Positions 5,480 through 61,045 of a stretch of 61,441 bases of DNA are shown one piece after another. A program made the translations under genes and the position numbers. Every line of letters begins with the position of its first letter. Positions within the stretch are counted from its first letter, which is position 1. A model generated the notes under the pieces. It had not been told where the DNA came from, did not search any database, and saw only the letters and a list, made by a program, of their open reading frames with translations. Origin of the DNA: Lachnospiraceae bacterium (GTDB taxonomy: Bacteria > Bacillota > Clostridia > Lachnospirales > Lachnospiraceae); the NCBI GenBank assembly GCA_017467805.1, contig JAFUKJ010000107.1:1-61441 (forward strand), given 5' to 3'.

Positions 5480-5500
5480 AGCTTAACCTTTCTATATTAT

Positions 5501-6205
5501 CTATCCTGTATATACCCTTATAAACGCCTCATTTACCTGCTTCGTCATACCTCTGCTGATAGGCAGCTTAACATTATTATCCATGACCAGCTCTGCCTTT
5601 ACAATTGCCGAAACATGCTGCATATTTACCAGATAAGAGCGATGACTGGAAATAAAACAGGACTTATCCTGTAGCAAATCCTTTACTTCACTAATGGAAT
5701 GCTTAATCCTGCACTCACGATTAGAAGTATACAGTACACTCTGATGTCCTGTCGCCTCAACATACCAGATATCTGACGGCAATATAAAGATACTACCGCT
5801 CTCTGTCTGTAGCAAAAGCTTATCCTCTGGCTTTTTTGTCTTTTGAAACTTATCAAGCACCTGAAACAGCTTCTCCTTATGAATTGGCTTTAACAGATAG
5901 TGTAACGCCGATACCTCATAGCCCTGTGCCATATAGCTCTCATAACCTGTAACAAACAAAATCGGTATATCCGCATATTGCTCACGAAGCTTCATTGCAA
6001 GCTCCATGCCATTGATTTCTCCCATCTCAATATCCAGAACCAGCAGGTCAAATGCTTTATCCTCTGCCCAACAAAATAAAAAGCCCTCCGCATTTAGAAA
6101 AGGGACGACTTCCAATAGAATATTCTGTTGCTTTGCCCATTCCTGCAAGTATTTTGTAAGTAATATTCTCTGTGCTTCCTCGTCATCACAAACCGCTATT
6201 CTCAT
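5501..6205 (-). CDS. LytTR-family response regulator (AgrA/ComE-like)
   Basis: The 234-aa protein has an N-terminal receiver domain (acidic pocket D7-D8, phosphoacceptor Asp58 in LLVLDIEMGEINGMEL, conserved Lys in LLKPI). Its C-terminal LytTR DNA-binding domain carries SSHRSYLVNMQHVSAI and the closing RGMTKQVNEAF. It is the first gene of the operon that continues with the GHKL kinase, MoxR, DUF58 and DUF4129-like genes, and it diverges from the ABC exporter pair. Direct repeats in the shared intergenic region are candidate binding sites. Confidence 0.95.
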   Translation of the reverse strand: MRIAVCDDEEAQRILLTKYLQEWAKQQNILLEVVPFLNAEGFLFCWAEDKAFDLLVLDIEMGEINGMELAMKLREQYADIPILFVTGYESYMAQGYEVSALHYLLKPIHKEKLFQVLDKFQKTKKPEDKLLLQTESGSIFILPSDIWYVEATGHQSVLYTSNRECRIKHSISEVKDLLQDKSCFISSHRSYLVNMQHVSAIVKAELVMDNNVKLPISRGMTKQVNEAFIRVYTG

Positions 6206-6257
6206 GATACCCGTCTCCTTTCTCCTACTTTTTAAATGTACTATCTATAGTGACAAG

Positions 6258-6287
6258 ATTATAGCACTTATGTTCGGAGTTTTTCAA
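6258..6287 (-). promoter_or_regulatory. Promoter of the LytTR/GHKL/MoxR operon
   Basis: Minus-strand TTGAAA (6282-6287), an 18-nt spacer and a perfect TATAAT (6258-6263). The start would be about 45 nt upstream of the response-regulator ATG. Confidence 0.75.
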
Positions 6288-6310
6288 TATAATTTCCTAA
6301 TAATTTGCAA

Positions 6311-6356
6311 TTCGTGCTAAATTAGATACATTTCGTGCAGTATTTACACTTCGCTC
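6311..6356 (+). promoter_or_regulatory. Phased direct repeats, candidate LytTR sites upstream of the ABC exporter
   Basis: TTCGTGC occurs at 6311-6317 and again at 6332-6338, exactly 21 bp (two helical turns) apart. A degenerate third copy, TTCGCTC, lies at 6350-6356. Paired direct repeats at this spacing are the classic LytTR-regulator site architecture. They lie upstream of a plausible -10 (TATTAT near 6366-6371) and the exporter start at 6406. Activation by the divergent regulator is inferred. Confidence 0.6.
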
Positions 6357-6405
6357 TCATTATCTGATATTATCAAGATAGCACTATGATAGGGAGGAGT
6401 ATTCT

Positions 6406-8280
6406 ATGTTAGACCTACGAGGAACCCGAATTGAAAAAACAGTTGGTAAATATAGCTTTTTTAACAATTTATTATATCACTATAAAAATTTATTCCGCTG
6501 GGAACCGTTGCTATTTTGGTCAAGTATTTTAATCCCCATTCCAGCATTGATTTATAGCGTGACAGGAAATCTTTTGCCTGCCCTTGTGGTGCAGGGCTTA
6601 GAGGAGAAATGGACACTTTCCAAATACCTGGTTTGTTTAATTGTTGTTTTGCTCATTATGCTACTCTTCAATCTGATAGAGGGGATTATGATGGTTCATC
6701 TTCAAGAGGGACGCATCATCTACGCCAGCCATTATATGACAGACTACGAACAGAAGAAAATGCGTGTAGACTTCAATGTCTTAGAAGATAAGGACTTTCA
6801 AAACCATGCCAATACTGCTTACAACGCTATCTATCAGGGCAGAGGTATTATAGAGTCTATTCAGAGTCTGCCTTATATGATTAGTTTGTTCGTACCCGCC
6901 TTGGTATATGGTGTCATTCTGGCAAGACTGCACATTATGATTCTTTTGTTATCCTTCATTAGCTGTCTGATATCTGCCAAGCTGCTCAAAATAGCTCGAA
7001 CCAAGCACAGTCAGGCACACCCGACGCTTGCAGACTATTCCCGAAAAATGACATACATTACCTCTAAAAGTATGGAGCCTTCTGCAGGTAAAGATATCCG
7101 TATCTATAAAATGACAGACTGGCTGCTTCGTCGATACGATGCGGACCTACAGGAAATGAATCAGACCTATTATCGTATTCACAATTGGTATATGGTAAAA
7201 AATACCACCGAAGCCGTTCTTACTCTTGTCAGCAACTTTGCAGTATACGCCTATCTGACATGGCTTGTCATAGAAGGTAAAATGACCGCTGCTGACTTTG
7301 TATTATACTTTGGATTTGCAAACAGCTTTTCGCAAAATACCTTCCAATGCCTAAGGCAAGCCCTTTCCCTAGGTATTATTGGAAATACCTTTGGAAGTAT
7401 TCGTGAGTACTTTGATACGCCAGAACGCAGAAACCAAGACAATCGCATCGACGAGGAATTATTAGCCCAAATGCGACAGCAGGCTGTTACGCTGGAGCTT
7501 CGGGATGTCAGCTTTACCTACCCTGGTGAAAAAGACCCCATCCTCTCGCATATTAATCTAAAAATAACCGCTGGCGAAAAGCTTGCACTTATCGGATTAA
7601 ATGGCGCAGGGAAAACCACATTAGTGAAGCTGATTTGCGGATTTTATCCACCGTCTGAGGGAGAAATCCTCATTAATGATATTCCCATTGAGCATTTTGA
7701 AAGAGAACAATATTACAGTCTACTCTCCGTCCTTTTCCAAGACTATACGATATTGCCCGTCAGTGTGGACGAGAATATTGCTTCATCAAAGGCAAGTGAC
7801 ATTCAGAACGATAGGCTTACTCAGGCACTTACACAGTCTGGCTTTGCTTCCCGCTATGAAAGACTGACAAATGGAGGTAAAAGTCTGATGGTACGTGACA
7901 TTCATACAGATGCTATCGACTTCTCAGGTGGAGAAAAACAACGCTTACTCTTTGCAAGGGCGCTCTATAAGGACGTTCCCTTGCTTATCTTAGATGAGCC
8001 GACAGCGGCACTTGATCCTATTGCAGAGAATGAAATCTATATGAAATACGGTGAGGTTACCAAGGGAAAGACCTCTATCTATATTTCTCATAGACTTTCA
8101 AGCACACGCTTTTGCGACCGCATCGTGCTATTAGAGCAAGGGCATATCATAGAAGAGGGTACTCATACACAGCTAATGGCGCAAGGTGGCAGATACGCCG
8201 AGCTATATGAAATGCAAAGCCGTTACTATAAGGAACAGGAAGAAACAAAACGCAGAAATGCTTACATGGAAGGAGACTAA
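6406..8280 (+). CDS. ABC exporter half-transporter 1 (permease-ATPase fusion)
   Basis: The 624-aa protein has a six-helix exporter domain (about residues 30-340) followed by an ATPase domain. The ATPase carries Walker A GLNGAGKTT (396-404), signature FSGGEKQR (506-513), Walker B LLILDEPTAALD and the H-loop ISHRLSS. There is no N-terminal C39 peptidase domain, so it is not a leader-cleaving bacteriocin exporter. GGGAGG precedes the ATG. It pairs with the next gene (1-nt gap) as a heterodimer and diverges from the LytTR operon, the usual layout of a peptide-export or antimicrobial-defence module. The substrate cannot be read from sequence. Confidence 0.93.
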   Translation: MLDLRGTRIEKTVGKYSFFNNLLYHYKNLFRWEPLLFWSSILIPIPALIYSVTGNLLPALVVQGLEEKWTLSKYLVCLIVVLLIMLLFNLIEGIMMVHLQEGRIIYASHYMTDYEQKKMRVDFNVLEDKDFQNHANTAYNAIYQGRGIIESIQSLPYMISLFVPALVYGVILARLHIMILLLSFISCLISAKLLKIARTKHSQAHPTLADYSRKMTYITSKSMEPSAGKDIRIYKMTDWLLRRYDADLQEMNQTYYRIHNWYMVKNTTEAVLTLVSNFAVYAYLTWLVIEGKMTAADFVLYFGFANSFSQNTFQCLRQALSLGIIGNTFGSIREYFDTPERRNQDNRIDEELLAQMRQQAVTLELRDVSFTYPGEKDPILSHINLKITAGEKLALIGLNGAGKTTLVKLICGFYPPSEGEILINDIPIEHFEREQYYSLLSVLFQDYTILPVSVDENIASSKASDIQNDRLTQALTQSGFASRYERLTNGGKSLMVRDIHTDAIDFSGGEKQRLLFARALYKDVPLLILDEPTAALDPIAENEIYMKYGEVTKGKTSIYISHRLSSTRFCDRIVLLEQGHIIEEGTHTQLMAQGGRYAELYEMQSRYYKEQEETKRRNAYMEGD

Positions 8281-8281
8281 T

Positions 8282-10108
8282 ATGAAGAAAGAATCTGATA
8301 TTACGATTATCCGAAAATTATTTGCCCTTTTTGCCAAACGCAACAAAAACCTAATATATGCCTGTCTGCTTACAGATGTCGTCGAATCACTTCGTCCTTA
8401 TGTGGTACTGATACTGTCAGGTATTCTGATAGACGGTTTTATTGACGGCAAAGCACTGCACACACTGCTTCTCTATACACTTATCGGTGTATTGGTTGCT
8501 TTCGTATTTCAATTTCTGTCTGCGGCACTTAGAAAATATCTGAATGCCCGTATTGAGAACTGTATGGAACGCCAGAATCAGGACCTTAATACAGCCAGTC
8601 TAAATATCGACTATGAATATTTAGAAGACCCTGCCCTTCAGGAAAAGAAGCGTAAGCAGGAGCAGGTCATTAATGCAAGAGGCGGTATCTACTGGAATCT
8701 TATCTGGCCGCTGGATAGAGGCTTTGGAGGCGTTATTAGTGTTCTAACCTCTATGATAATTTCCTTCCCGCTATTCTTTGGAAATAAGGATTTTCAATAT
8801 AGCATTATTGCTTCTCCATGGATGGGTCTGCTTTTATTTCTATTAATTGCTACTACTATCTGGGGTATCTACGCTTCTGACCAGTACAGCAGCAAGAAAG
8901 GACATGAATGCTTTGAAGAGTTCAATCAAATAAAAAAAGCTCATAGTTATATCATTGGAAACATTCTTGCCAATAGTGAAAGCGGAAAAGACCTCAGAAT
9001 ATTCGGTCAGAGCAAGCTTATCATGCATACGCTGCATGAAAATGATAAAGAAGCTGCTGTATGCCTGAAAAAGGAACGTAACTACTATATACAAAGTGAA
9101 ATACTCAACCGCTTCTTATCTAATTTCTGTCTTGGCTGTGTTTATCTATATGTGGCACTGAATGCATATGCAGGATTTATCAGCATTGGCAATGTTGTAC
9201 TCTACGCCAGCAGTATTGTAAAGTGTATTGACGGCGTATCCGAGGTGTTATTAGGTATATCAGGCTTTAAACGCGTTGCACAGTATGGACGTGACTATTT
9301 AGATTATATAGACTTTTCAGACAGAAAGTACAAGGGGACGCTTCCCGTTGAAAAGCGACGTGACAACCGCTTTTTAATCGAATTTGACAATGTATCCTTC
9401 TGTTATCCAGGGACAAAGGACTATGTCCTTCGCAACCTGAGTCTTAAGCTGGATATAGGCGAACGTTTTGCCATCGTCGGCAAGAACGGCTCAGGTAAAA
9501 CCACTTTTATCAAACTCTTATGCAGGCTCTATGACCCAACTGATGGCGAGATTAAGTTAAACGGAATTGATATTACAAAGTATAATTATGATGAATATTT
9601 GAATTTATTCTCTGCTGTATTTCAAGATTATCAGATGCTCGCCCTTAAGGTTGGTGAAAATATTGCAGCCTCTGATGAGGTAGACCATGATAAGGTCTAC
9701 GATGCCTTGAACAGGGCAGGACTAGAGGAACGATTTCTTGAGACCGATGATAATGTTTACATCGGCAAAGAATATGACGAAAGCGGTGTGAATTTCTCTG
9801 GTGGAGAAAAGCAGAAAATGGCAATTGCAAGAGCTATTTACAAGGATGCTCCTTTTGTCATTATGGATGAGCCAACCGCTGCACTTGACCCTGAGTCCGA
9901 ATGCGAGGTATATGCAGGCTTTAATAAGATGGTCGGCAACAAGACCGCTCTTTATATTTCACATCGCCTTGCATCCTGCCGCTTCTGTCAGGACATTCTG
10001 GTCTTTGACAACGGGCAGGTCATCCAACGCGGCAGCCATGAGGAACTGATTGAACAGGATGGACTTTACCAAAAGCTTTGGAATGCCCAAGCGCAATATT
10101 ATACCTAA
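8282..10108 (+). CDS. ABC exporter half-transporter 2 (permease-ATPase fusion)
   Basis: The start at 8282 is chosen because GGAGA lies 6-8 nt upstream and it follows the previous stop by 1 nt; the open frame extends further upstream only inside the first transporter. The 608-aa product has a membrane domain (about residues 20-330), Walker A GKNGSGKTT (about 400), signature FSGGEKQK (about 504), Walker B FVIMDEPTAALD and H-loop ISHRLAS. Both nucleotide sites appear intact in the pair. It is followed by a strong terminator. Confidence 0.93.
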   Translation: MKKESDITIIRKLFALFAKRNKNLIYACLLTDVVESLRPYVVLILSGILIDGFIDGKALHTLLLYTLIGVLVAFVFQFLSAALRKYLNARIENCMERQNQDLNTASLNIDYEYLEDPALQEKKRKQEQVINARGGIYWNLIWPLDRGFGGVISVLTSMIISFPLFFGNKDFQYSIIASPWMGLLLFLLIATTIWGIYASDQYSSKKGHECFEEFNQIKKAHSYIIGNILANSESGKDLRIFGQSKLIMHTLHENDKEAAVCLKKERNYYIQSEILNRFLSNFCLGCVYLYVALNAYAGFISIGNVVLYASSIVKCIDGVSEVLLGISGFKRVAQYGRDYLDYIDFSDRKYKGTLPVEKRRDNRFLIEFDNVSFCYPGTKDYVLRNLSLKLDIGERFAIVGKNGSGKTTFIKLLCRLYDPTDGEIKLNGIDITKYNYDEYLNLFSAVFQDYQMLALKVGENIAASDEVDHDKVYDALNRAGLEERFLETDDNVYIGKEYDESGVNFSGGEKQKMAIARAIYKDAPFVIMDEPTAALDPESECEVYAGFNKMVGNKTALYISHRLASCRFCQDILVFDNGQVIQRGSHEELIEQDGLYQKLWNAQAQYYT

Positions 10109-20378: not shown

Positions 20379-20407
20379 ATTATATCGAAAGGCGGAGATT
20401 TTGTCTA
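20379..20407 (-). promoter_or_regulatory. Promoter of the MFS gene
   Basis: Minus-strand TAGACA (20402-20407), a 17-nt spacer and TATAAT (20379-20384). The -35 box overlaps the stop codon of the upstream CPBP gene. Confidence 0.65.
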
Positions 20408-21241
20408 TTTCCAAATCACACACTCTGTTGGTTCCAGCTTCCTTGTAATCCGATAGGAGATGATTATATTAGGCAAACCAACCACAAGCGCTCCGATTAT
20501 TTCCATAGTAACAGCAGACATATCCATTGTTGCAGTTGCATCCACATACTGTATTGAAGAAATTTCCAATCCCATAAATGCTAAGATTAGCATTACAAAC
20601 AAATCATTTAACGCATGGATAATCATACATATCCAAATATTCTTAGTCTTCATATAAATTGCTGCCAATAATATACCGACCGATCCTGTAACAAGTATTT
20701 TACTTGTCATCTGTGAAATTACCACTAAGGGATTTCCTCCTATATCAAAAAGATTCTCCCATACATGCATAAAACCAAAGAATAATCCACTGATTACAAT
20801 CGCACCAAATAGCCCTGCCTTGGTCTTTGGCATTATTTTTACAAATCCGTTTGTAATAATACCTCTAAAAAGCCCCTCTTCAAAGAATCCAATAACCAAT
20901 GTATACACTAAATATGCAACACTTAAACTTAACCAGTTCTTGGCAATCTCTACTTCTCCTACTAAAGCGCCAAGACCGATTGTCATTACAAATGATACTA
21001 TCGGAAATATTAAAATATATATACTTCTTATTAATCCATATCTTCCACTTTTCTTCTGCCATGTGAAAAGCTCTTTGCCTGCAACAGTGTATAAAATTCC
21101 TAATATGACAATTCCCAAAACCACTCTAATGGGAATTTGCCCCCATACACCTTCTCCTATGCGAATCTTAATTCCTAACTGTGCAATAACAACTAATCCA
21201 ATCATTATAATGACTGGATGTTTTGAAATAAAACCTTTCAT
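20405..21241 (-). CDS. CPBP-family intramembrane glutamic metalloprotease
   Basis: The 278-aa membrane protein has all CPBP/Abi motifs: EEGLFRG (motif 1), FGFMHVWENL (motif 2) and HALNDL (motif 3). These supply the Glu/His metal-site residues seen in Rce1-type proteases. CPBP proteins in Firmicutes often process or give immunity to bacteriocin-like peptides. It starts 27 nt after an XRE regulator with a membrane tail and is very similar in layout and wording to the CPBP protein at 56607 (shared KKSGRY, FRGII-NG-VK-MPKTKAGL, KTKNIW and PTECVIWK-type C-terminus), so the two are paralogues. Confidence 0.9.
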   Translation of the reverse strand: MKGFISKHPVIIMIGLVVIAQLGIKIRIGEGVWGQIPIRVVLGIVILGILYTVAGKELFTWQKKSGRYGLIRSIYILIFPIVSFVMTIGLGALVGEVEIAKNWLSLSVAYLVYTLVIGFFEEGLFRGIITNGFVKIMPKTKAGLFGAIVISGLFFGFMHVWENLFDIGGNPLVVISQMTSKILVTGSVGILLAAIYMKTKNIWICMIIHALNDLFVMLILAFMGLEISSIQYVDATATMDMSAVTMEIIGALVVGLPNIIISYRITRKLEPTECVIWK

Positions 21242-21268
21242 GTGGATTCCTCTTTTCGTAATGCCTAC

Positions 21269-21673
21269 TTAATTCGTTATATTATAAATAAACTCTCCTA
21301 TGTCATCGCCGATTCCCTGCCCCATCTGCCAAATAACAAAAATAATCACAAAACAAACTGGGATAAGAAATAGTTTTAAATATTGTTTCTTTGAGACATT
21401 ATTCTTATCCCCTTTGAATTCTTTCTCTTCTATGATGTCATTTGCAATATGTACAGTTTCCTCTTTCGATGTCTCTACGTCTACTCCCTTAATTAAGTAA
21501 TCTGTTGATACCTCAAATAATTCACTCAGCGCAACCATCTTTTCAATATCAGGTACACATATTCCACTCTCCCACTTAGAAACAGCTTGTCTGGATATGC
21601 CCATCTTCTCTGCAAGCTGCTCCTGTGAGAATCCTTTTTCTTTTCTAATTGTTTTTAAATTTTCATTGAACAT
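21269..21673 (-). CDS. XRE-family regulator with a C-terminal membrane anchor
   Basis: The 134-aa protein has a Cro/C1 helix-turn-helix (residues 1-60: [25 protein letters not shown]), a charged linker and one membrane helix (about 98-117) ending in [17 protein letters not shown]. The tail shares a G-x-x-[IL]-G-[EQ]-x-[IV]-Y pattern with the 53-aa peptide upstream (21755) and with the second XRE protein (22032). Membrane tethering suggests control by a membrane partner, possibly the adjacent CPBP protease; that is inference. Confidence 0.88.
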
Positions 21674-21754
21674 CTTTTGTTCCTCCTCGTGTTTTGATAG
21701 CTTTACTCTATGTCAAAACATGCCGTTGCCGCAAGCAACGGAAATTAACATCCG

Positions 21755-21916
21755 CTAATTTGCTATATAATATATAGCTTCTCCTATTGCATATCCGAAC
21801 TCATAGGTTAACTTTAATGCGATTGCTATCGCTACAGCAGACACAGCTCTTTTCTCTGTCTTTGAGCACTTTCCCTTCCACCAATTTTCAATCATATTTC
21901 CTACCTTGTTATTCAT
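21755..21916 (-). CDS. 53-aa cationic, amphipathic small membrane protein or peptide
   Basis: A short gene with an excellent ribosome site (AAGGAGG, 9 nt before ATG). The product starts MNNKVGNMIENWWKGKC, has a basic stretch (KTEKRA), then a hydrophobic segment (AVSAVAIAIALKLT) and ends YEFGYAIGEAIYYIAN. The C-terminus matches the membrane tails of both flanking XRE regulators (G-x-x-[IL]-G-[EQ]-x-[IV]-Y). It has no double-glycine leader. A small hairpin (21723-21740, CCGTTGC/GCAACGG) follows. It may be a peptide that interacts with the regulators' membrane tails, or a leaderless antimicrobial-like peptide. Function unknown. Confidence 0.72.
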   Translation of the reverse strand: MNNKVGNMIENWWKGKCSKTEKRAVSAVAIAIALKLTYEFGYAIGEAIYYIAN

Positions 21917-22031
21917 AACATCTGACCTCCTTCATTTGATAATCAAATCTTATCGAAAAACACTCGTATAGCCTATAAATTTACGGTTGCACTTGCAAAA
22001 ATCGCATGTAAACTTTGGGTAGCAAGGCTGA

Positions 22032-22457
22032 TTAATGCAATAAATGATAAACAAACTGGCCTAAAACATATCCGCAACCGTATGAAAGTAATAATACAAT
22101 TGCAAACAATGCAAATGTTACAAGGCAATATAATAAAATGAATTTTGTTTTCTGCGAACCACTTAAATTTGTAATAAATGTATTCCACACCGCCCACATA
22201 TTCTTATTAAAATATTTACCCTTTGGTTCTAATGTCTCAGCTTTCTCTCGTTCCTCATACTCTTTTCCTCGCACCAAGTAATCCAGTGAAACCTGAAAAT
22301 AATCACTCATAAATATCAGCCTCGACATCTCAGGATATGCTCTATCCGTCTCCCACTTAGAGATTGATTGTCTTGATACATCCATTATCTCTGCAAACTT
22401 CTCCTGTGATATATTCTTTTTGGTTCGTAATTCATAAAGTCTTTCTCCAAATGTCAT
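22032..22457 (-). CDS. XRE-family regulator with a C-terminal membrane anchor (second copy)
   Basis: The 141-aa protein has an N-terminal helix-turn-helix (ISQEKFAEIMDVSRQSISKWETDRAYPEM) and a linker. A hydrophobic helix (about residues 108-130) ends LSYGCGYVLGQFVYHLLH. It has the same architecture as the gene at 21269 and a related tail. It is the first of four minus-strand genes (XRE, 53-aa peptide, XRE, CPBP). Gaps of 115 and 81 nt leave room for separate promoters. Confidence 0.88.
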   Translation of the reverse strand: MTFGERLYELRTKKNISQEKFAEIMDVSRQSISKWETDRAYPEMSRLIFMSDYFQVSLDYLVRGKEYEEREKAETLEPKGKYFNKNMWAVWNTFITNLSGSQKTKFILLYCLVTFALFAIVLLLSYGCGYVLGQFVYHLLH

Positions 22458-41376: not shown

Positions 41377-43578
41377 TTACCTAAATTTCAAATTTTTCCA
41401 CAAAATACTTACCTTAAACAAATCTCCATCTACATCTATCTTAAAGCTTCCATCTTGGGCTTCAACAAAACTTTTGGCTATAGCAAGCCCTAAGCCTGAG
41501 CCTTCCGTATTTCGTGACGCATCGCCTCTGACAAAACGCTCTGTCAGCTCGTCACCCTTTACATTTAATTCAGCAGCGGAGATATTTTTTATCTGTATCT
41601 CCAGCATATCCTCTCTATCCTGTACATCAATATACACACGGCTATTAGGCATGGCATATTTCTTAATGTTTACAAACAGATTCTCAAAAATACGATAGGT
41701 TTTCTGATTGTCGAGCTGTAACACGGTATGTGTCGCATCGATATTCCAGCGAAGCTCGATTCCCAGCTTTTCAAAGCTCTCTGAATGCTCAATGGCTACC
41801 TGCTTCATCAGATTTACAACATCCAAATCCATTAGATTCAATGTGATATTGTTAGTAGTTGCCTTACTGACCTCAAATAAATCCTCTATCAGTACCTTTA
41901 GACGAAGTGACTTCTTATCCAAGGTATCAATGTAGCTTCTACGCTCCTCCTCCGTGAGATTCTCGTTCTTCAACAGCTCTACATAGGTGGTAATCGCAGT
42001 AAGAGGCGTCTTTAAATCATGAGATACATTCGTAATCAGCTCTGCCTTCATACGCTGGCTCTTAACCTCTTCTTCAACTGCTTTCTTGAAGCCAGTCTGA
42101 ATCTTTGCAATCTCATCCTTCATCGGCTCAAATACTCCGATATTCTCATTAATCGTAATCTCCAAATCTCCGTCCGCAATCTGATTTGTCGCTTTTAAAA
42201 GTGTGCGATAATCATTTCGAATCTTATCCGCATTCTTCTTGATATTGTAAAAAAGAACGATTGAATACGCCACAAACAAATATACACCAAACAAACCAAA
42301 CCATGAGCATACCACAAATGCCACAAAATTAATCAAAACAATTTTAAAAATATTCTTGGTTACGCCCTCCGAAAGGTCGATATCTGTTATAGACTCCTTA
42401 AAGCACTTCCATAGCTTTTTACTAAACGGATATATCTGATAAATCAAGCTATACTGTCTGATGTATTCTCCAATCCCTAATGAGAACACAGGACGAATCA
42501 CACTCATTGACAGATAGAAGCAGGCAAAATACACAAACCAAAATGCAAACTGTGCTATCAAAAATCCCCACGCCTCACTTGTATATCCTGTTGCAGTTTT
42601 TCCTGTAATAATCAATGTTCGATAGCTTGTTACACCATAATGAATAAATGCTTCTATCAATTGTCTGTATTCAAAGAATATCGCTTCAAAACATAACAAA
42701 TAGATGATTGCCACCTCTGCAATCTGCCACCTTCCATGCCTGTCATAGGATGTGATATCCTTCCATAGCAGCCTGCTGTTCATAAGCAATGCAAGTATCG
42801 CAATTACTACCAAAGTTCCCAAAAAGAATAATCCTGGCTCCGAATCACTATCTATACCATTATTCCATTGTATGCTGTGATCATATAATGGCAAGTTAAC
42901 ATCATAAGGAATACCATATACAACGACAAAATCCGTTATCGGTTGATAAACCGACTCCTGCGTGCAGTCAAAAATATAGCTTTCCAACGCATTATCTCTG
43001 TCAGCCTGCAAAAATGCCTTTATTAACAAATCCTTCTGTAACTCACCACTGCTCTCTACCTGAATACTTAATACTCCGTTTTCATCAAAGCGCAACAGAA
43101 AGTAGAACTCATAAGCCTCTTTTAACTCCTCTAAAACCGCTGAATCAGGGTGCTCCTCTAATAACACCTCCAGCATTTTATCGGTATTCTTTGTTGAAGA
43201 ATCTCCTCCCTGTACGTAATAGTCCACATTCATCAAATCGCCTTCGCTTTCACGCTCCCAGCTTTTCAGCATCGATGCTAACCCACTATATAAGTCAGCA
43301 TACTCTTCCTTCGTCGCCGTCGTAAACACACCGCCAGCCTCTACACTTCTATCTGCCTGCTGACACTGCTGCAAATAAAGACAGTAGCTGTTATTGTACA
43401 ACAACTGAATATTCCCTTCGTAAATATCATCATACTCATGCACAACCGCCTCTTTTTTATCCTCATATTGTGAACTATAATATGCAAAAAAGGCAAAATT
43501 AACTGCCGTAATCAGCATAAGCGCTATTGTTGTAATCCATATTCTCTTTTTTCTATTGTTTTTCAATTTTGTATCCAA
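41377..43578 (-). CDS. Sensor histidine kinase with seven membrane helices
   Basis: The 733-aa protein has an N-terminal helix (13-33), an extracellular domain of about 210 residues, a bundle of about six helices (250-455), then a HAMP-like segment and the HisKA domain. The phosphoacceptor is His520 in NVSHDLKTPLTA. The HATPase domain closes with EGSGLGLAIAKSF. It is coupled to the upstream response regulator (26-nt overlap), the standard cell-envelope-stress type of Firmicutes. The signal is unknown. Confidence 0.9.
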   Translation of the reverse strand: MDTKLKNNRKKRIWITTIALMLITAVNFAFFAYYSSQYEDKKEAVVHEYDDIYEGNIQLLYNNSYCLYLQQCQQADRSVEAGGVFTTATKEEYADLYSGLASMLKSWERESEGDLMNVDYYVQGGDSSTKNTDKMLEVLLEEHPDSAVLEELKEAYEFYFLLRFDENGVLSIQVESSGELQKDLLIKAFLQADRDNALESYIFDCTQESVYQPITDFVVVYGIPYDVNLPLYDHSIQWNNGIDSDSEPGLFFLGTLVVIAILALLMNSRLLWKDITSYDRHGRWQIAEVAIIYLLCFEAIFFEYRQLIEAFIHYGVTSYRTLIITGKTATGYTSEAWGFLIAQFAFWFVYFACFYLSMSVIRPVFSLGIGEYIRQYSLIYQIYPFSKKLWKCFKESITDIDLSEGVTKNIFKIVLINFVAFVVCSWFGLFGVYLFVAYSIVLFYNIKKNADKIRNDYRTLLKATNQIADGDLEITINENIGVFEPMKDEIAKIQTGFKKAVEEEVKSQRMKAELITNVSHDLKTPLTAITTYVELLKNENLTEEERRSYIDTLDKKSLRLKVLIEDLFEVSKATTNNITLNLMDLDVVNLMKQVAIEHSESFEKLGIELRWNIDATHTVLQLDNQKTYRIFENLFVNIKKYAMPNSRVYIDVQDREDMLEIQIKNISAAELNVKGDELTERFVRGDASRNTEGSGLGLAIAKSFVEAQDGSFKIDVDGDLFKVSILWKNLKFR

Positions 43579-44272
43579 CGCCCCACACCACCTTTAAATA
43601 CTTGGGTTCCTTGGGATTAATTTCTATCTTATCCCTCAGATTTCGTAAATGTACCATAACCGTTTCCGTATTGACAGCCTTCTCATTCCAAACTCTCTCG
43701 TATATCTCTTCTGCGGAAAAAACTCTACCAGGATTCTTAATGAGTAAGCACAATATCTTAAATTCCATTGGTGTTACCTTCACCAAATTACCGTCTACAG
43801 TAACCTCTACCGTATCCTCATTCACTTCCAATCCGCCTATCACATACACTCTTTCTTTGTTTGTCTGCGCTGTAAAGCGACTTTGAAATCGGGTATATCT
43901 CCTAATCTGCGAATTCACCCTTGCCATCAGCTCTAACGGCGTAAACGGTTTTGTCACATAGTCATCGGCACCAATATTTAAGCCGATTACCTTGTCCGTC
44001 TCCTCTGATTTTGCCGACAGCATGATTACGGGAAACTCATACTTTTCTCTTAGCTTCATGGTCATTGTAATTCCATCCATGCGCGGCATCATAATATCAA
44101 TAATAGCAAGCTGTATGTCCTGCTGTTCCAACAGCTCTAAGCCCTCTACTCCATCCGCCGCCTGAGACACCTCATATCCCTGACTTCTTAGGAAAATTGC
44201 AATTCCTTCCCTGATTTCTTTATCATCCTCAACTACCAAAACGTGATACTGTTGATTATTTTGCTCCATCAT
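43553..44272 (-). CDS. OmpR-family response regulator
   Basis: The 239-aa protein has a receiver domain (acidic pair E15-D16-D17, phosphoacceptor Asp59 in LAIIDIMMPRMDG, Lys in VTKPFTPLELMARVN) and a C-terminal winged helix (VKVTPMEFKILCLLIKNPGRVFSAEEIYERVW). VanR/PhoB-like. First gene of the two-gene system. Confidence 0.95.
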   Translation of the reverse strand: MMEQNNQQYHVLVVEDDKEIREGIAIFLRSQGYEVSQAADGVEGLELLEQQDIQLAIIDIMMPRMDGITMTMKLREKYEFPVIMLSAKSEETDKVIGLNIGADDYVTKPFTPLELMARVNSQIRRYTRFQSRFTAQTNKERVYVIGGLEVNEDTVEVTVDGNLVKVTPMEFKILCLLIKNPGRVFSAEEIYERVWNEKAVNTETVMVHLRNLRDKIEINPKEPKYLKVVWGVGYKIEKQ

Positions 44273-56234: not shown

Positions 56235-56585
56235 ATGAAAACATATTTTAGTCTTAGAAATTTATTTTCAGGAAATGTATTTCCTTGGAAAACTTCGACA
56301 GAACCTAAAGAGGAAGAAATACTTACCCCAAAGGATATGCTTCTTGCAGATATTAAGAAAACCATGGAGGCTTTAGATATCGCCTATGCAGGCTTAGACA
56401 ATGCAACAGACCCTGACCTGATTGACTGCTACATCTATGAAGTGAACGCTACCTTGAAGCGTTACCGCTTCCTGATTCATCAGGCAGAAAGCATGGAAAT
56501 CGTAACACCCTGCTACGAAGAAAAGTATGCTACCATTCCAGTTCCAACGCCACTGGCTACAACGATGCTATTGGAGGCAGAGTAA
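56235..56585 (+). CDS. DUF2508-family protein
   Basis: The 116-aa protein has the DUF2508/YaaL-type helix pair: LLADIKKTMEALDIAYAGLDN, then TDPDLIDCYIYEVNATLKRYRFLIHQAE. A ribosome site (GAAAGG) precedes the ATG. Function unknown; in Bacillus the relative is near recR. Diverges from the Tad operon. Confidence 0.72.
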   Translation: MKTYFSLRNLFSGNVFPWKTSTEPKEEEILTPKDMLLADIKKTMEALDIAYAGLDNATDPDLIDCYIYEVNATLKRYRFLIHQAESMEIVTPCYEEKYATIPVPTPLATTMLLEAE

Positions 56586-56598
56586 GACAATATGAAAT

Positions 56599-56622
56599 GG
56601 AGGCTGTCAACTGACAGCCTCC
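56599..56622. terminator. Bidirectional terminator hairpin
   Basis: Perfect GGAGGCTGTC/GACAGCCTCC stem with a 4-nt loop between convergent genes; it overlaps the stop codon of the CPBP gene. T tracts are poor. Confidence 0.6.
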
Positions 56623-57494
56623 AATGCATCTTCCTTATCTATATCATTTGATTTCCACATCACACATTCCTCTGGATTTAACTTTCTCATAATCCTAATC
56701 GCAATAATTGCATTAGGAATACTAACTATTGCTGTAACCAATGCTGATATTACAAGTGCGCTTTCGCTCACCCCTTTTTCTACATATGAGTGAGATACCA
56801 CTCCTCCTGTCAATGGATTAATAAGAAACAGAATAAAATCAATCATCGCATGAAGCAAAATACATGCCCATATGTTCTTGGTTTTAAAGTAAATTGAAGC
56901 TAATAGCATACCAATAGAACCAATTTTAAATATTGACATCATCATTTGTACAATACCTGATAAAGAATAGTATTCTGCATCTAGCAAATACCACATTATG
57001 TGTACAAATCCGAATAAGATGCTGCTTATTATAATTGCCTTATATAAGCCTGCTTTTGTTTTAGGCATTACCTTTACCAACCCATTAACAATAATTCCTC
57101 TGAATAATCCTTCTTCGAATAATCCTATCATCAATGCCAATGCCAAAAATACAAGTGCTTTACACCACCAATCATCATGTAAACGTCTAAAAGGATTCTG
57201 ATATGTTTCTATAACCCTTATTGTCAACACGAAAATATTGGATATTAAAGGAACTATTCCGCATAAAAAGGCATATCTTCCACTCTTTTTTGACCATAAA
57301 AAGATTTCCTTTCCCGCAACAATATGTAAAGTACTGAGCATAATTACACCTAGTACCATTCTAAGTAGAATACTTCCTAAATATCCATGACCTATTATAT
57401 GTACGAAGTATCCCTCAAAATATAGTACAACCATTGAAATCATTAATAGTATACTTATTACAAAGATTGGTTTTTCTTGTATTATTTTCTTCAC
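56607..57494 (-). CDS. CPBP-family intramembrane metalloprotease (paralogue of 20405)
   Basis: The 295-aa protein has EEGLFRGIIVNGLVKVMPKT (motif 1), FGFVHIMWYLL (motif 2) and LHAMIDFILF (motif 3). It closely parallels the protein at 20405 throughout, including KKSGRY, KTKNIWACILLHA and the C-terminal RKLNPEECVMWK. Located downstream of the bacteriocin-like genes; CPBP proteins often serve as immunity factors there, so that role is plausible here. Confidence 0.9.
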   Translation of the reverse strand: MKKIIQEKPIFVISILLMISMVVLYFEGYFVHIIGHGYLGSILLRMVLGVIMLSTLHIVAGKEIFLWSKKSGRYAFLCGIVPLISNIFVLTIRVIETYQNPFRRLHDDWWCKALVFLALALMIGLFEEGLFRGIIVNGLVKVMPKTKAGLYKAIIISSILFGFVHIMWYLLDAEYYSLSGIVQMMMSIFKIGSIGMLLASIYFKTKNIWACILLHAMIDFILFLINPLTGGVVSHSYVEKGVSESALVISALVTAIVSIPNAIIAIRIMRKLNPEECVMWKSNDIDKEDALEAVS

Positions 57495-57563: not shown

Positions 57564-57872
57564 CTAACGAATCATCTGCATAACATATCTACCAAACAGA
57601 AATGCCAAGCACGCTATATATGACAAACTTGATATAATATTCACAGCATATATGCAAACCATCGAATCAAAGCTTTTTCCTCTTTTGATTACACCTTTGT
57701 AATTACTATAATAACCAAACAATACAGAACTAAATACCCAAATAAAAATTTTAGGAATTACACCACCTAATTGTAACCTCATAAATACAATTGTTGATAT
57801 CCATAAAACAACCAATACAATCAATGATCCCCAATAAAATTCTTTTGTTTCTTTTATTTCTTCTACTCTCAT
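57564..57872 (-). CDS. Small three-helix membrane protein
   Basis: ATG at 57872 follows GAGGAG. The 102-aa product has helices at about 15-32, 40-56 and 75-98. No family recognised. Its place between bacteriocin-like genes and a CPBP protease makes an immunity or accessory role possible. Confidence 0.6.
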   Translation of the reverse strand: MRVEEIKETKEFYWGSLIVLVVLWISTIVFMRLQLGGVIPKIFIWVFSSVLFGYYSNYKGVIKRGKSFDSMVCIYAVNIISSLSYIACLAFLFGRYVMQMIR

Positions 57873-57922
57873 TCTAACACTCCTCTTCAACAAAATCGTT
57901 TTTCACATGAGTAGATTATAAC

Positions 57923-58589
57923 TTATGTAAACCTTATTGCAAGATTTATGTCGTGAAATGAATTTTTTTTGTCGCGAACGGTGTATTCCTTATCCTTATT
58001 TTTCTTATTCAAGACAAAATATAGATATATCATATCGCCTACAACACATACCAAGCCAACTACACATAGTATGCCCTTCGATACCTCATCTAATATCTGC
58101 ATATTATGAAAAGCTCCCATGAAATTAAATGCCATATGATGTACTATTGGCGCAAACAAAACCTGTGCCATGAATCTTATGCCTACATTTCCTTCTATCA
58201 ATGTCTCTGTCTTAGTATGATATGTATCCACCATATTACCTTCTATAAAAGTAAGTAAATATCCGAAAAATACCACTTCTGCTACTCCTATGATTATGAT
58301 AGGAACAATCTCTCGTAGGCTCAATCTTGCAAGCTTAATAATTTCTCTTCCGTCATTACTTTTACTTCTCATATAAAAAACAAAAACAGAATTACAACAT
58401 ACGATATAATATATACAATCCATTTGCTTTCTCTCAGCAATGCTGACGAACTTTCTGCCAATATAATATCTCCATTATCCTTATAATTGACATAAATGCC
58501 CTTCATAAAGGATGATAACGCTTGTACCACAATCGTTATGGAAAAAAATAAATTAAATATTCAAATGAACTAAAAAGGGATTTCTTCAT
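57923..58589 (-). pseudogene. CPBP-like protease pseudogene with catalytic core deleted
   Basis: From ATG 58589 (GAGGT upstream) the product begins MKKSLFSSFEYLIYFF, then shifts frame at a run of seven T, continues SITIVVQALSSFMKGIYVNY, shifts again at a run of six T, and proceeds YMRSKSNDGREIIKLARLSL to a stop at 57923. The late part, QVLFAPI followed directly by VHHMAFNFMGAF, joins the segment before motif 1 to motif 3; EE-x-x-FRG and motif 2 are missing. Both shifts would be repaired by one extra T, but the internal deletion shows true decay. Confidence 0.72.
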
Positions 58590-58599
58590 TTGTACCTCA

Positions 58600-58863
58600 T
58601 TAAATGTTTTTCACTCTCTTTTCTGGTCTCTTTAACATCATTCCATGCAAAATATTTATTATGAATAGTTTATCTATTCCTATGTTCAAACCTAATTCTC
58701 TATTATATGCGGATAATTGTGTCGTATTCAACTTAGGAATAAATCCCAGCTTATCTGTGATATAGAACTTTTTATCCATCCAAAAATATGTAATGAATAT
58801 TTTTATTGATACATCTAGCAATACCAAACCACATACTATACTTAATCTACATGTTCTTTTCAA
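58600..58863 (-). CDS. Truncated LspA-like (signal peptidase II) protein
   Basis: A TTG start at 58863 is supported by AAAAGGAG 8 nt upstream. The 87-aa product has VCGLVLLDVSIKIFITYFW (the family's N-terminal D-x-x-x-K helix) and KLGFIPKLNTTQLSAYN, but stops before the later helices and the catalytic Asp pair. It resembles the atypical short signal-peptidase-II-like proteins found in Lachnospiraceae, cut short. Probably non-functional as a peptidase. It lies in the bacteriocin-like cluster. Confidence 0.5.
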   Translation of the reverse strand: MKRTCRLSIVCGLVLLDVSIKIFITYFWMDKKFYITDKLGFIPKLNTTQLSAYNRELGLNIGIDKLFIINILHGMMLKRPEKRVKNI

Positions 58864-59076
58864 AGAACGTTCTCCTTTTGAAAATAATATTCTTTTGCAC
58901 CCATATAAAAGCAATATTCTTCTCCTAGGTACTTTTAAGTGCTTTGTGATTTTAACTCCGATATATGCAAAAAATACCACTCTACATGTATAACAAGTGA
59001 TATTCCTTGCAATCTAATATTACACCTATTAAATCTCTTTTATCTTAATGAATCATGTTTAAATGTATCTTAATTA

Positions 59077-59340
59077 TTAATCAGCCAACAAACTAAATCC
59101 ATAACCCAATAATGCCACTCCTGCCACAGCTAAAACAACTCCTCCTGTTGCCATTAAGCCAACAGAGCAACTAACACCTATAAAAGTTGCTGTTCCTCCT
59201 GTTGCCGTTGCTGCTGTATAAATTGCACCTACTCCCGCAGCCGCAACATCTGCACCAGTAATTATACAACCTAATCCCGTGCTTATATCCGCTCCTCCAT
59301 TAATAATCTCTAACTCTTCAAATGTAAGATTTTGCACCAT
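59077..59340 (-). CDS. Double-glycine-leader bacteriocin-like peptide 1
   Basis: An 87-aa product with a class II leader: MVQNLTFEELEIINGG (double Gly at 15-16). The mature part of 71 residues begins ADISTGLGC, is strongly Gly/Ala/Val-rich with GxxxG-type spacing, contains two Cys and ends YGFSLLAD. This is like the lactobin A/cerein 7B-type two-peptide bacteriocins. AAGGAGGAG precedes the ATG. It lies 15 nt after peptide 2, so both are one transcript. Confidence 0.82.
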   Translation of the reverse strand: MVQNLTFEELEIINGGADISTGLGCIITGADVAAAGVGAIYTAATATGGTATFIGVSCSVGLMATGGVVLAVAGVALLGYGFSLLAD

Positions 59341-59355
59341 ATTCTCTTCTCCTCC

Positions 59356-59613
59356 TTAATTGAATATTTGATAAACACCATAAACCGTTAATGCAGCACC
59401 TGCTACAATACATGTAGATCCTAGTAGTCCCATCCCCGCAACACATGCAGCTGTAAGTATAGTAGTTCCTGTCATCTCAGATGCTACAGCAAAAATTCCA
59501 TAACCTGTTGCTATGCCCGTAATTCCTCCAGCAATATCTGCTATCGCATTTCCTCCATTGACCCATAACATATCATCCGCGCATAAGTTTTCAAACCCTA
59601 CTACATATTCCAT
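59356..59613 (-). CDS. Double-glycine-leader bacteriocin-like peptide 2
   Basis: ATG at 59613 follows AAGGAGG at ideal spacing (the frame extends 11 codons further without a site). The 85-aa product has leader MEYVVGFENLCADDMLWVNGG (double Gly at 20-21) and a mature part beginning NAIADIAGGITGIATGYG, Gly/Ala-rich with GxxxG motifs and two Cys, ending YGVYQIFN. Paired with peptide 1, this fits a class IIb (two-peptide) bacteriocin. Confidence 0.82.
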   Translation of the reverse strand: MEYVVGFENLCADDMLWVNGGNAIADIAGGITGIATGYGIFAVASEMTGTTILTAACVAGMGLLGSTCIVAGAALTVYGVYQIFN

Positions 59614-59674
59614 ATAATAATCCTCCTTCATGACTATATTTAACATGATTCATTAATTACAATTGGATTAAAAA

Positions 59675-59848
59675 TTATTTTTTTCTTAAAATCCATACTA
59701 TAACTCCTAAAAGACCAATCAGCGTAACAGCTATATATCCTATTACTGGAATCACTGACGCATTTTTAGACACAAAAAATGTATCTACTAATTTAATCAT
59801 TCCAAATAATAATAACGTTACACTCAAAAACCCCTCTTGTTTCTTCAT
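59675..59848 (-). CDS. 57-aa two-helix membrane protein, candidate immunity protein
   Basis: GAGGT lies 8 nt before the ATG. The product begins MKKQEGFLSVTLLLFGMIKL, has a second helix (VIPVIGYIAVTLIGLLGVIVW) and ends in RKK. It is the first gene after the LytTR-regulated promoter and immediately precedes the two bacteriocin-like genes. Size and topology fit class II bacteriocin immunity proteins, though no family is recognised. Confidence 0.7.
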   Translation of the reverse strand: MKKQEGFLSVTLLLFGMIKLVDTFFVSKNASVIPVIGYIAVTLIGLLGVIVWILRKK

Positions 59849-59964
59849 TTCTAATTACCTCTTTGACTCAAAACTATCTGATTATTTCCTATATACAAGC
59901 ACAGGATAGTATAATAATAATCAGTTATTAGCTATATATCTCTTCACTCATTGTTTACATAATT

Positions 59965-59994
59965 AGATTACCACTATGCACTTACTAATTACAA
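59965..59994 (-). promoter_or_regulatory. Promoter of the bacteriocin-like operon
   Basis: Minus-strand TTGTAA (59989-59994), an 18-nt spacer and an extended -10 TGGTAATCT (TAATCT at 59965-59970). The -35 lies 9 nt from the nearest LytTR repeat, the position expected for activation. The predicted leader is about 110 nt. Confidence 0.62.
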
Positions 59995-60002
59995 ACAAAA
60001 GG

Positions 60003-60055
60003 TAATGAACGGTCGATTTTTGTAATAAACGGTCACTTTTATGTCATGAACGATC
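60003..60055 (-). promoter_or_regulatory. Three phased direct repeats, LytTR-type binding sites
   Basis: On the plus strand TAATGAACGGTC (60003), TAATAAACGGTC (60023) and TCATGAACGATC (60044) are spaced 20 and 21 bp apart. On the minus strand each reads (A/C)CGTTNAT-like, close to the boxes bound by PlnC/ComE-type LytTR regulators. The last copy overlaps the stop codon of the LytTR gene. Confidence 0.75.
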
Positions 60056-60377
60056 ATTCATCTCGCATAAGATACTCTTTGTATCTTTCCTCGAACTCCT
60101 TTTTACGCCGTCTGGCAAGCGGAACAGATGTGCCATCCTTAAGAACCACCGTACTTTCTACCTTTGCCACATATCTTAGATTCACGATATAGCTTTTATG
60201 TATGCGAACAAAGCCCTCGCTTTCCAACTCCTGTTCCCACTCACCTAAGCTTTTATCCGAAAGAACCTCCTCTCCTTCTACATCAACAACTGTGTATCTT
60301 CCTTCTGCTATTAACAACTCTATCTTTCTACTTTGTACTACATTCTTTCTCCAATCATTAAATAGTGAAACCTGCAT
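60054..60377 (-). CDS. Stand-alone LytTR DNA-binding regulator
   Basis: ATG at 60377 with GAGAGGG upstream is preferred, since a promoter (TTGAAA-17-TATATT) lies between it and a longer open frame. The 107-aa product is a LytTR domain without receiver: GRYTVVDVEGEEVL, FVRIHKSYIVNLRYVAKVEST, VPLARRRKKEFEERYKEY. Three matching repeats follow directly, ahead of the bacteriocin-like operon it probably controls. Confidence 0.85.
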   Translation of the reverse strand: MQVSLFNDWRKNVVQSRKIELLIAEGRYTVVDVEGEEVLSDKSLGEWEQELESEGFVRIHKSYIVNLRYVAKVESTVVLKDGTSVPLARRRKKEFEERYKEYLMRDE

Positions 60378-60423
60378 TCGTAATAAATCCCTCTCATAAC
60401 AATTCTCTTTATTAGATAGCTTC

Positions 60424-60452
60424 AATATACTTTTTGACTTCATCATTTTCAA
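60424..60452 (-). promoter_or_regulatory. Promoter of the LytTR gene
   Basis: Minus-strand TTGAAA (60447-60452), a 17-nt spacer and TATATT (60424-60429), about 40 nt before the chosen start. Confidence 0.65.
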
Positions 60453-60504
60453 GATGCATGTGCTGATTGGTAGTGAAAACGTGCTATTTGACATAATTTA
60501 TGCA

Positions 60505-60568: not shown

Positions 60569-61045
60569 CTACGCAAAATACCCCCGCTTTGCGTCATAGC
60601 CTACGACATTCTCGTTTACATCGGTCTTGCCGTAGGTAAAGCCTGCGTATACCGTCTGGATATTCGCCATCAAAGGCTCCGAATCGTCCTGACTGCTAAT
60701 CGTGTAATAAGCGTCATGGAGCTTTGTGAAAATCATTGTCACTACATCCAGATTGTCAAGCTTATAGCCATACATATCTGCTGCCAGCTCTCTGTCAGCA
60801 AAGCAGTACAGCTGGAATAAATTCTTCGACAACTCATACTGGAAGTTCAGAGTGGTACGCATCTGACCAATGCACTCTCTTGCCATCTTCAGATTGGTAA
60901 CAAACTCTTTTCTATCATCATTATGAAATGCATTCTTAGCATCCTCAAGGTACACCAATAGCATTTCATATACGATAACTACCAGCTGTGTTTTATTTGC
61001 ACTTGTGATTCTTCTTGTAAATCCCTGTTTTGTTTCAGTTGTCAT
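60569..61045 (-). CDS. fliS: FliS-like flagellin export chaperone
   Basis: The 158-aa helical protein matches FliS: the N-terminal ITSANKTQLVVIVYEMLLVYLEDA and RECIGQMRTTLNFQYELSKNLFQLYCFADREL. FliS binds the C-terminal disordered part of flagellin in the cytosol and prevents premature polymerisation. It lies directly downstream of flagellin. The C-terminus is about 30 residues longer than in Bacillus. Confidence 0.86.
   Translation of the reverse strand: MTTETKQGFTRRITSANKTQLVVIVYEMLLVYLEDAKNAFHNDDRKEFVTNLKMARECIGQMRTTLNFQYELSKNLFQLYCFADRELAADMYGYKLDNLDVVTMIFTKLHDAYYTISSQDDSEPLMANIQTVYAGFTYGKTDVNENVVGYDAKRGYFA

Follow-up and report, generated by a model that had tools for sequence, protein, structure and literature searches.

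Organisation of the island

We analysed a window of 61,441 nucleotides, the whole stretch taken from contig JAFUKJ010000107.1 of a Lachnospiraceae bacterium (assembly GCA_017467805.1). Within it lies a small minus-strand island, running from 60.5 to 56.6 kb and flanked by FliS and DUF2508 genes, in which a protein made of a LytTR domain only is encoded just upstream of an operon for a 57-residue protein and two double-glycine peptides. The LytTR protein, the repeats behind it, the promoter, the 57-residue protein and the two peptides together span 59077-60377. A preliminary description, made from the letters alone, had taken these elements for a LytTR-controlled, two-peptide bacteriocin-like locus. 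The source genome (G000) is a 2.99-Mb draft in 121 contigs, 95.25% complete, and was compared within a set of 39 genomes of the genus that includes it, that is with 38 others. Our reading, to which we give about an even chance, is that the stretch at 56.6-60.5 kb serves as an island where cassettes for exported peptides are exchanged under a LytTR-only switch. What carries it is the anatomy of the locus, the genome-wide rarity of its sites, and the fact that one congener (G011) keeps both the regulator and the sites with a different cargo. The features, in the order in which the minus strand is read, are these.

60569-61045: FliS gene, flank of the island.
60424..60492, minus strand: promoter of the LytTR gene, with 'class 2' direct repeats GTCAAATAG-12-ACCAATCAG, 10 bp, then TTGAAA-17-TATATT; conserved in G011.
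60054..60377, minus strand: LytTR-only protein, predicted to bind DNA, probably 107 amino acids; PF04397 and Shine-Dalgarno sequence GAGAGGG.
60005..60054, minus strand: three 'class 1' LytTR-type repeats, 9-mers ATCGTTCAT, ACCGTTTAT and ACCGTTCAT; conserved in G011.
59965..59994, minus strand: core promoter of the peptide operon, TTGTAA-18-TGGTAATCT, with extended -10; same layout in G011.
59675..59848, minus strand: 57-residue hydrophobic protein with two likely membrane helices (by eye).
59356..59613, minus strand: peptide 1, 85 amino acids, leader ending in NGG, mature part 64 amino acids; AGGAGG Shine-Dalgarno sequence.
59077..59340, minus strand: peptide 2, 87 amino acids, leader LTFEELEIINGG, mature part 71 amino acids; AGGAGG Shine-Dalgarno sequence.
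57923..58980, minus strand: short frames matching no recognised family; by eye, either decayed or membrane proteins of an unfamiliar kind.
57915..57982, minus strand: second LytTR-type promoter, ACCGTTCGC-12-TCATTTCAC, 10 bp, TTGCAA-16-TATAAT.
57564..57872, minus strand: 102-residue membrane-like protein, start taken from Shine-Dalgarno sequence GAGGAG (longest frame 109 amino acids).
56607..57494, minus strand: CPBP (Rce1-like) intramembrane protease, 295 amino acids; PF02517, E 2.4e-17.
56598..56623, minus strand: terminator-like hairpin at the island end; matching sequence follows the upstream CPBP gene of G011.
56235-56585, plus strand: DUF2508 gene, flank of the island.

A LytTR-only regulator with its own promoter

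The LytTR domain (PF04397, E 9e-20) was matched on a 146-residue frame that contains no receiver domain, in agreement with the preliminary description, and in the PHROGs search the regulator matched LytTR-like families. The longest frame reaches 60494 and the start with a Shine-Dalgarno sequence lies at 60377, giving 146 and 107 amino acids, respectively. Inside the DNA for the first 39 residues of the longest frame, after repeats 21 bp apart, there is a promoter, TTGAAA-17-TATATT (60452-60424); its G011 counterpart, TTGAGA-17-TATAGT, has the same layout, while the longer reading frame is not kept there. Because this conserved promoter of its own sits within the longer frame, we take the true product to be probably the 107-residue protein starting at 60377. 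The upper bound given earlier for the locus, 60452, falls on a TTG belonging to the -35 of the conserved promoter, and the start has to be moved to 60377. That the G011 gene is frameshifted was considered and rejected, as the mismatch sits in promoter DNA upstream of the probable start.

Between the two species the 107-residue gene has a nonsynonymous divergence (dN) of 0.096 and a synonymous divergence (dS) of 0.505, a dN/dS of about 0.19; the same comparison gives dN 0.011 and dS 0.468 for FliS, and dN 0.111 and dS 0.600 for DUF2508. The regulator is therefore kept by selection, about as loosely as DUF2508. More distant LytTR relatives (80 loci kept, mostly from Bacteroidota at 30-49% identity, with L044 compared further) were uninformative.

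Two classes of sites and their promoters

The three class 1 repeats start at the last base of the regulator stop codon, are spaced by 21 and 20 bp (60005-60054), and are followed after 10 bp by the peptide promoter TTGTAA-18-TGGTAATCT. The peptide-side promoter of G011, TTGTAA-18-TGCTACAGT, has the layout seen in the window. Thus both the direct repeats phased at 20-21 bp and the extended -10 promoter, already proposed from the letters alone, are confirmed, and the repeats, whose conservation in relatives had been set as a point on which the proposal could fail, are kept in G011. With repeats, -35 and extended -10 all conserved in a congener, LytTR control is well supported by anatomy.

The sites are rare. 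A class 1 double-site pattern has two matches in the 2.99-Mb source genome, which lie at 60021-60051 and 57949-57979 within the island, and none in its reversed control; over the 39 genomes there are 10 matches in 8 genomes, 6 of them outside the source genome and G011, with 4 in 3 genomes for the reversed control. When the pattern was scanned family-wide, over 397 genomes with 2 of the genus and G011 not included, the source genome alone matched. The second class 1 site of the island precedes the genes for the 102-residue protein and the CPBP protease, with TTGCAA-16-TATAAT as core promoter, and is 85% identical over 41 nucleotides (57942-57982) to the site before a C39 exporter gene of G011.

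The sites before the regulator, AATAGCAC and ATCAGCAC, 21 bp apart, differ from class 1 and we call them class 2. Their pattern has one match in the source genome, upstream of the regulator (reversed control 0), one at the same place in G011, and two in another congener, G024, both within a radical-SAM peptide cluster. These four matches at LytTR or peptide loci are part of 20 in 13 genomes of the set, with 2 in 2 genomes for the reversed control.

Nine promoters were scored for a -35/-10 pair at each offset past the last 9-mer. The mean score is highest at 10 bp, which is also the best offset in 7 of the 9 promoters; in the two G024 promoters it is 4. For seven promoters, with the two G011 counterparts dropped, the mean at 10 bp is 8.93 against 5.08 when shuffled, and 0 of 5000 shuffles reach it, in a test that is not fully independent because the register of the last 9-mer was chosen with the published 10-bp rule in mind and because two of the seven (the second window site and that of the G011 exporter) have a similar 41-nucleotide site. 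A rule of the form [9-mer]-12-[9-mer]-10-(-35) may tie unlinked operons of this genus into one LytTR regulon.

The same switch with another cargo

Regulator, repeats and promoter are present in G011 at the same chromosomal site, with 86% DNA identity over 520 nucleotides. There the shared block (contig C99) is followed by a gene for a 69-residue NGG peptide, a CPBP protease gene, a radical-SAM gene whose product scores best with the NCBIfam model PapB, though under the cut-off of that model, and then DUF2508, while a second CPBP gene precedes the regulator. The cargo is thus unrelated between the window and G011, with DUF2508 following in both, and the 57-residue protein is absent from G011. 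On another G011 contig a gene for a C39 exporter with the catalytic motif DCGAAC begins directly after FliS, preceded by LytTR-type repeats and cut by the contig end. A second exporter N-terminus, identical over 71 residues, lies at the end of a contig that also encodes a response regulator sharing 93% identity with one of the source genome. From synteny we infer that the FliS contig and the regulator contig of G011 form one island.

The G024 cluster (contig C101, L160 4346-14794) comprises a LytTR response regulator, two NGG peptides, a CPBP protease, a radical SAM/SPASM protein (best model again PapB, below its cut-off), a GHKL-type kinase, a C39 exporter 91% identical to the G011 part, and an HlyD-like protein of 704 amino acids. 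Its precursors share MVRYTE...EECQLAxNGGC, and the response regulator shares no more than 27% identity with those of the source genome to which it was compared. A 44-residue peptide with a ComC-like double-glycine leader, a candidate pheromone, is encoded at L160 8702-8836 (minus strand), with the class 2 sites on one side and the exporter gene on the other. The CPBP protease of this cluster is 39.6% identical to that of the island. Elsewhere in the window, at 20405-22457, there is another CPBP protease, 49% identical to the one in the G024 radical-SAM cluster; beside it, by eye, are two XRE-type regulators with a seeming C-terminal membrane segment and a 53-residue hydrophobic protein.

The rest of the island is less easily named. 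The 102-residue protein has no match among family models, padloc or PHROGs, and 57923-58980 contains no recognised family of Pfam, NCBIfam or PHROGs. We rejected 57923-58530 as a broken CPBP gene, since tblastn with CPBP queries gave no convincing match; a short membrane-like frame at 58600-58980 recalls signal peptidase II by eye, with no family match. An Rfam scan of the locus found nothing.

The peptides and the 57-residue protein

Both peptides have the Gly/Ala-rich composition and double-glycine leaders attributed to them: the leaders end in NGG, each gene has an AGGAGG Shine-Dalgarno sequence, the mature parts of 64 and 71 amino acids contain 36% and 41% Gly+Ala, and each has exactly two Cys. 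The leader of peptide 2 fits the published double-glycine leader rule Leu(-12)...Glu(-8)-Leu(-7) (PMC6363468). The two precursors align with 36% identity and may be paralogues. The 57-residue protein is also present as described, its two helices judged by eye; it has no family match over cut-off in Pfam or NCBIfam and is a candidate immunity protein or membrane partner.

Other claims did not survive. GxxxG spacing had been ascribed to both mature peptides, and peptide 2 has no such motif (2.48 expected from shuffles) while peptide 1 has two (1.66 expected). A looser AxxxA/GxxxG/SxxxS pattern (PMC13289728) is found by eye (ADVAA in peptide 2), which means little at 36-41% Gly+Ala. A profile search against bacteriocin models, proposed earlier as a check, gave none over cut-off in Pfam or NCBIfam, the nearest for peptide 1 being a lantibiotic model at 11.1 bits against a cut-off of 32.95. 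There was no match in padloc and one weak match in PHROGs, for peptide 2 (E 0.018). Similarity of peptide 1 to RecA-related chains in the PDB (E to 4e-10) was judged spurious, as these are fused multi-RecA chains and single RecA chains reach 0.0019 at best. The predicted structure of peptide 2 has a predicted local distance difference test score (pLDDT) of 42.5, too poor for use. Mature peptides of class IIb two-peptide bacteriocins are usually cationic; those of the island contain neither Lys nor Arg, with net charges of -2 (peptide 1) and -3 (peptide 2). Hence of the label 'two-peptide bacteriocin-like' the adjacent double-glycine pair stands, while family model, GxxxG excess and charge do not support it.

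Export

A search bore out that the window contains no C39 exporter. We found no catalytic one in the source genome either, within a draft of 95.25% completeness, and since this outcome had been named beforehand as refuting, the bacteriocin claim is weakened. The genome has 26 ABC_membrane matches, 25 over cut-off, and a C39 match coincides with one only. We rejected this protein (contig C49) as the peptide exporter, as its gene lies between those of an RTX protein and an HlyD-type protein; compared with the G011 exporter, it has NTGYLC for DCGAAC and Tyr for the His of the second motif. With its catalytic motifs altered and with such neighbours, we read its C39 domain as one of type I secretion that has degenerated. 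The locus as a whole (L024 4308-12406) encodes a 1590-residue RTX-type protein, the type I secretion ATP-binding cassette (ABC) protein with the non-catalytic C39 domain, and an HlyD-like protein.

G011, which has the same module, does have a catalytic C39 exporter, next to FliS, and counterparts of its two exporter copies were not found in the source genome. Exporter genes are easily missed here, because the genome is a draft and both G011 copies sit at contig ends. A C39 match occurs in 17 genomes of the set of 39, over cut-off in 16, and in many cases the protein is a short one and not an exporter.

Other LytTR genes and two-component systems

Pfam finds 15 LytTR matches in the source genome, 7 in frames of 145-162 amino acids and 8 in frames of 238-270. 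The regulator of the island is the seventh of the short genes. Each of the six other short receiver-less genes (6/6 inspected) is directly followed by one for a membrane-like protein of 133-158 amino acids, two of these over the DUF3021 cut-off and one under it, one over the DUF6608 cut-off, one with only a sub-threshold EamA match and one with no match; the island regulator has no such downstream partner.

The window does contain kinases, contrary to what was first written: a GHKL kinase (4745-5479) lies next to a full LytTR response regulator (5501-6205), and an OmpR-type pair is seen by eye at 41377-44272. Beside the former, at 6406-10108, two ABC exporter proteins are encoded, the first with ABC domains and no C39 match. 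The locus at 4745-10108 is a possible remote partner system for the island. Scanning with a strict motif for double-glycine leaders returned just the two peptides already described for the island, and nothing in the neighbourhood of the kinase (window 4-11 kb); the motif is insensitive, as the NGG precursors in G011 and in G024 escaped it.

Two more loci were noted by eye. On contig C53 of the source genome (L206, 644-3347) an AgrB-like protein is encoded beside a kinase and a LytTR response regulator, resembling an Agr-like quorum-sensing locus. In G011, class 1-like LytTR repeats lie at L134 6180-6230 (contig C90), flanked on one side by a kinase/response-regulator pair and on the other by a metalloprotease-like gene.

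Proposed mechanism and alternatives

From this layout we infer DNA binding to the class 1 sites, activation, a cascade, export in trans and killing. The 107-residue LytTR-only protein would bind the three 9-bp repeats, which stop 10 bp short of the neighbouring -35, and most likely activate the operon of the 57-residue protein and the two double-glycine peptides; the CPBP operon would be activated too, via the second pair of sites. Since the regulator has no receiver, its output would be set by the amount of it that is made. The LytTR-type sites at its own promoter are of a different class, so that its gene is probably switched on by another LytTR regulator. After cleavage at Gly-Gly the peptides would leave the cell through a C39 transporter supplied from elsewhere. 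In their mature form they may serve as bacteriocins or as antagonistic peptides of a related kind, with immunity given by the 57-residue protein, the CPBP protease or both.

A wider form of this proposal is tentative, and we consider it rather doubtful: a two-tier LytTR cascade would serve a fixed landing site between FliS and DUF2508, at which regulator, operator and promoter stay constant. Exchange would affect the exporter, the immunity function and the type of peptide, an unmodified Gly/Ala-rich pair in the window and a radical-SAM peptide in G011. The species of the window would have kept its peptides without an exporter of its own and rely on a transporter elsewhere, and the acidic pair would form a new peptide family. 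If the island works as proposed, a single switch that is already in place and independent of phosphorylation could take up different peptide-antibiotic genes, much as a socket takes plugs.

Several observations weigh against the cassette-exchange reading. The closest published analogue of the regulator, BlpS, is a repressor (PMC8545106). Conservation rests on 1 of the 38 other congeners; in two more the DNA matches are weak and extend over only 76 and 61 nucleotides. Both site patterns also match places in congeners with no known LytTR link, and in 7 loci inspected by eye, out of the 16 other class 2 matches, no such link was seen. To these we add the 4-bp offset in G024 and the shared site and preset register of the offset test, the lack of a catalytic C39 exporter, and the acidic charge of the peptides and their lack of GxxxG excess, both unlike class IIb bacteriocins. 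Finally, no relative of peptide 2 was found in 98 other genomes, and a two-peptide profile gave a single match, at E 0.095, in the 38 other congeners.

The alternatives partly overlap with one another and with our account, and their odds need not sum to one. The one that survives best, while still unlikely, is that the LytTR-only protein represses, by occupying sites of a phosphorylated full-length LytTR response regulator encoded elsewhere, as BlpS competes with BlpR at a shared two-peptide bacteriocin operator (PMC8545106). The 8 of 15 LytTR matches in long frames fit this, as does the kinase/response-regulator pair on G011 contig C90, followed by sites of the same class. However, there is no kinase or response regulator in the island, none of the LytTR loci compared in the source genome comes close to the C90 regulator (best 32% identity), and within that genome the class 1 double-site pattern is confined to the island.

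It is distinctly improbable, in our judgement, that the products are not bacteriocins and serve instead as LytTR-controlled secreted signals or as structural or adhesive Gly-rich peptides. No bacteriocin model is matched over cut-off, the composition is acidic with no Lys or Arg, and relatives for comparison were found neither in the genomes searched nor among plasmids and viral contigs. The double-glycine leaders, the paired genes and the nearby CPBP protease point the other way, as do the radical-SAM peptide clusters, of which that of G011 occupies the same site and that of G024 carries class 2 sites.

Least probable is that exporter and kinase were lost and that the peptide operon, left behind, no longer yields anything today: the two exporter copies of G011 without found counterparts here, and the decayed look of 57923-58980 (by eye), would suit it, but peptide frames, Shine-Dalgarno sites, promoter and regulator are all intact, the regulator is under purifying selection between species, and the draft of 121 contigs is one in which an exporter is easily missed.

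Comparison with known systems

The earlier statement that the set does not obviously match a described system was too strong, as both BlpS (PMC8545106) and the LytTR Regulatory Systems (PMC6193735) are published. Among the papers listed, judged by titles and abstract openings, we found no account of the present arrangement, which is no proof that it is unpublished.

BlpS, from the gallocin locus of Streptococcus gallolyticus, is a LytTR-only protein of 108 amino acids that acts on two-peptide bacteriocin genes and represses them, competing with BlpR at the same operator (PMC8545106). It resembles the regulator of the island in domain content, size (108 against 107 amino acids) and position near a two-peptide double-glycine operon, and the two loci share an operator just upstream of the -35 and the presence of Abi-type (CPBP) proteins. 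In contrast to the island, BlpS adjoins the kinase/response-regulator pair BlpH/BlpR, with pheromone and exporter in the locus; nothing of this kind is adjacent in the island. Moreover, BlpS is a repressor, whereas the window regulator may act in either direction.

The LytTR Regulatory Systems HdrRM and BrsRM of Streptococcus mutans, in which HdrR and BrsR activate bacteriocin genes via such repeats, have sites made of 9-bp repeats, in most cases with 12 bp between them and with 10 bp left to the -35 (PMC6193735). The island shares the receiver-less LytTR regulator and the 9-bp repeats, 11-13 bp apart and about 10 bp before the -35, and the hdrRM promoter is built as in the island, with a -35, 15 bp and a TGn extended -10. 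These systems are defined by a downstream membrane inhibitor, whereas in the island the regulator is followed by repeats, a new promoter and the 57-residue protein. Autoregulation, another trait of these systems, acts through repeats ahead of the regulator's own promoter; the island regulator has repeats at this position, of a sequence class that differs from that of the peptide promoter. A LytTR-only protein that lacks a membrane partner makes the choice between activation, as by HdrR, and repression, as by BlpS, directly testable.

With the radical-SAM clusters of G024 (C101) and G011 (C99) the island has in common NGG leaders, a CPBP protease and LytTR-type promoter sites; the peptides there are short, Cys-containing and unrelated, and the island has no radical-SAM enzyme or exporter. 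With class IIb bacteriocins it shares two adjacent small, hydrophobic, Gly/Ala-rich double-glycine peptides, from which it departs in that these are acidic, match no model, have GxxxG absent or not enriched, and come with no exporter found. Because the membrane inhibitor of the LytTR Regulatory Systems, the two-component system of BlpS and several class IIb features are missing, the island is, strictly, neither a LytTR Regulatory System nor of the BlpS type; it is best seen as a variant that would work like these.

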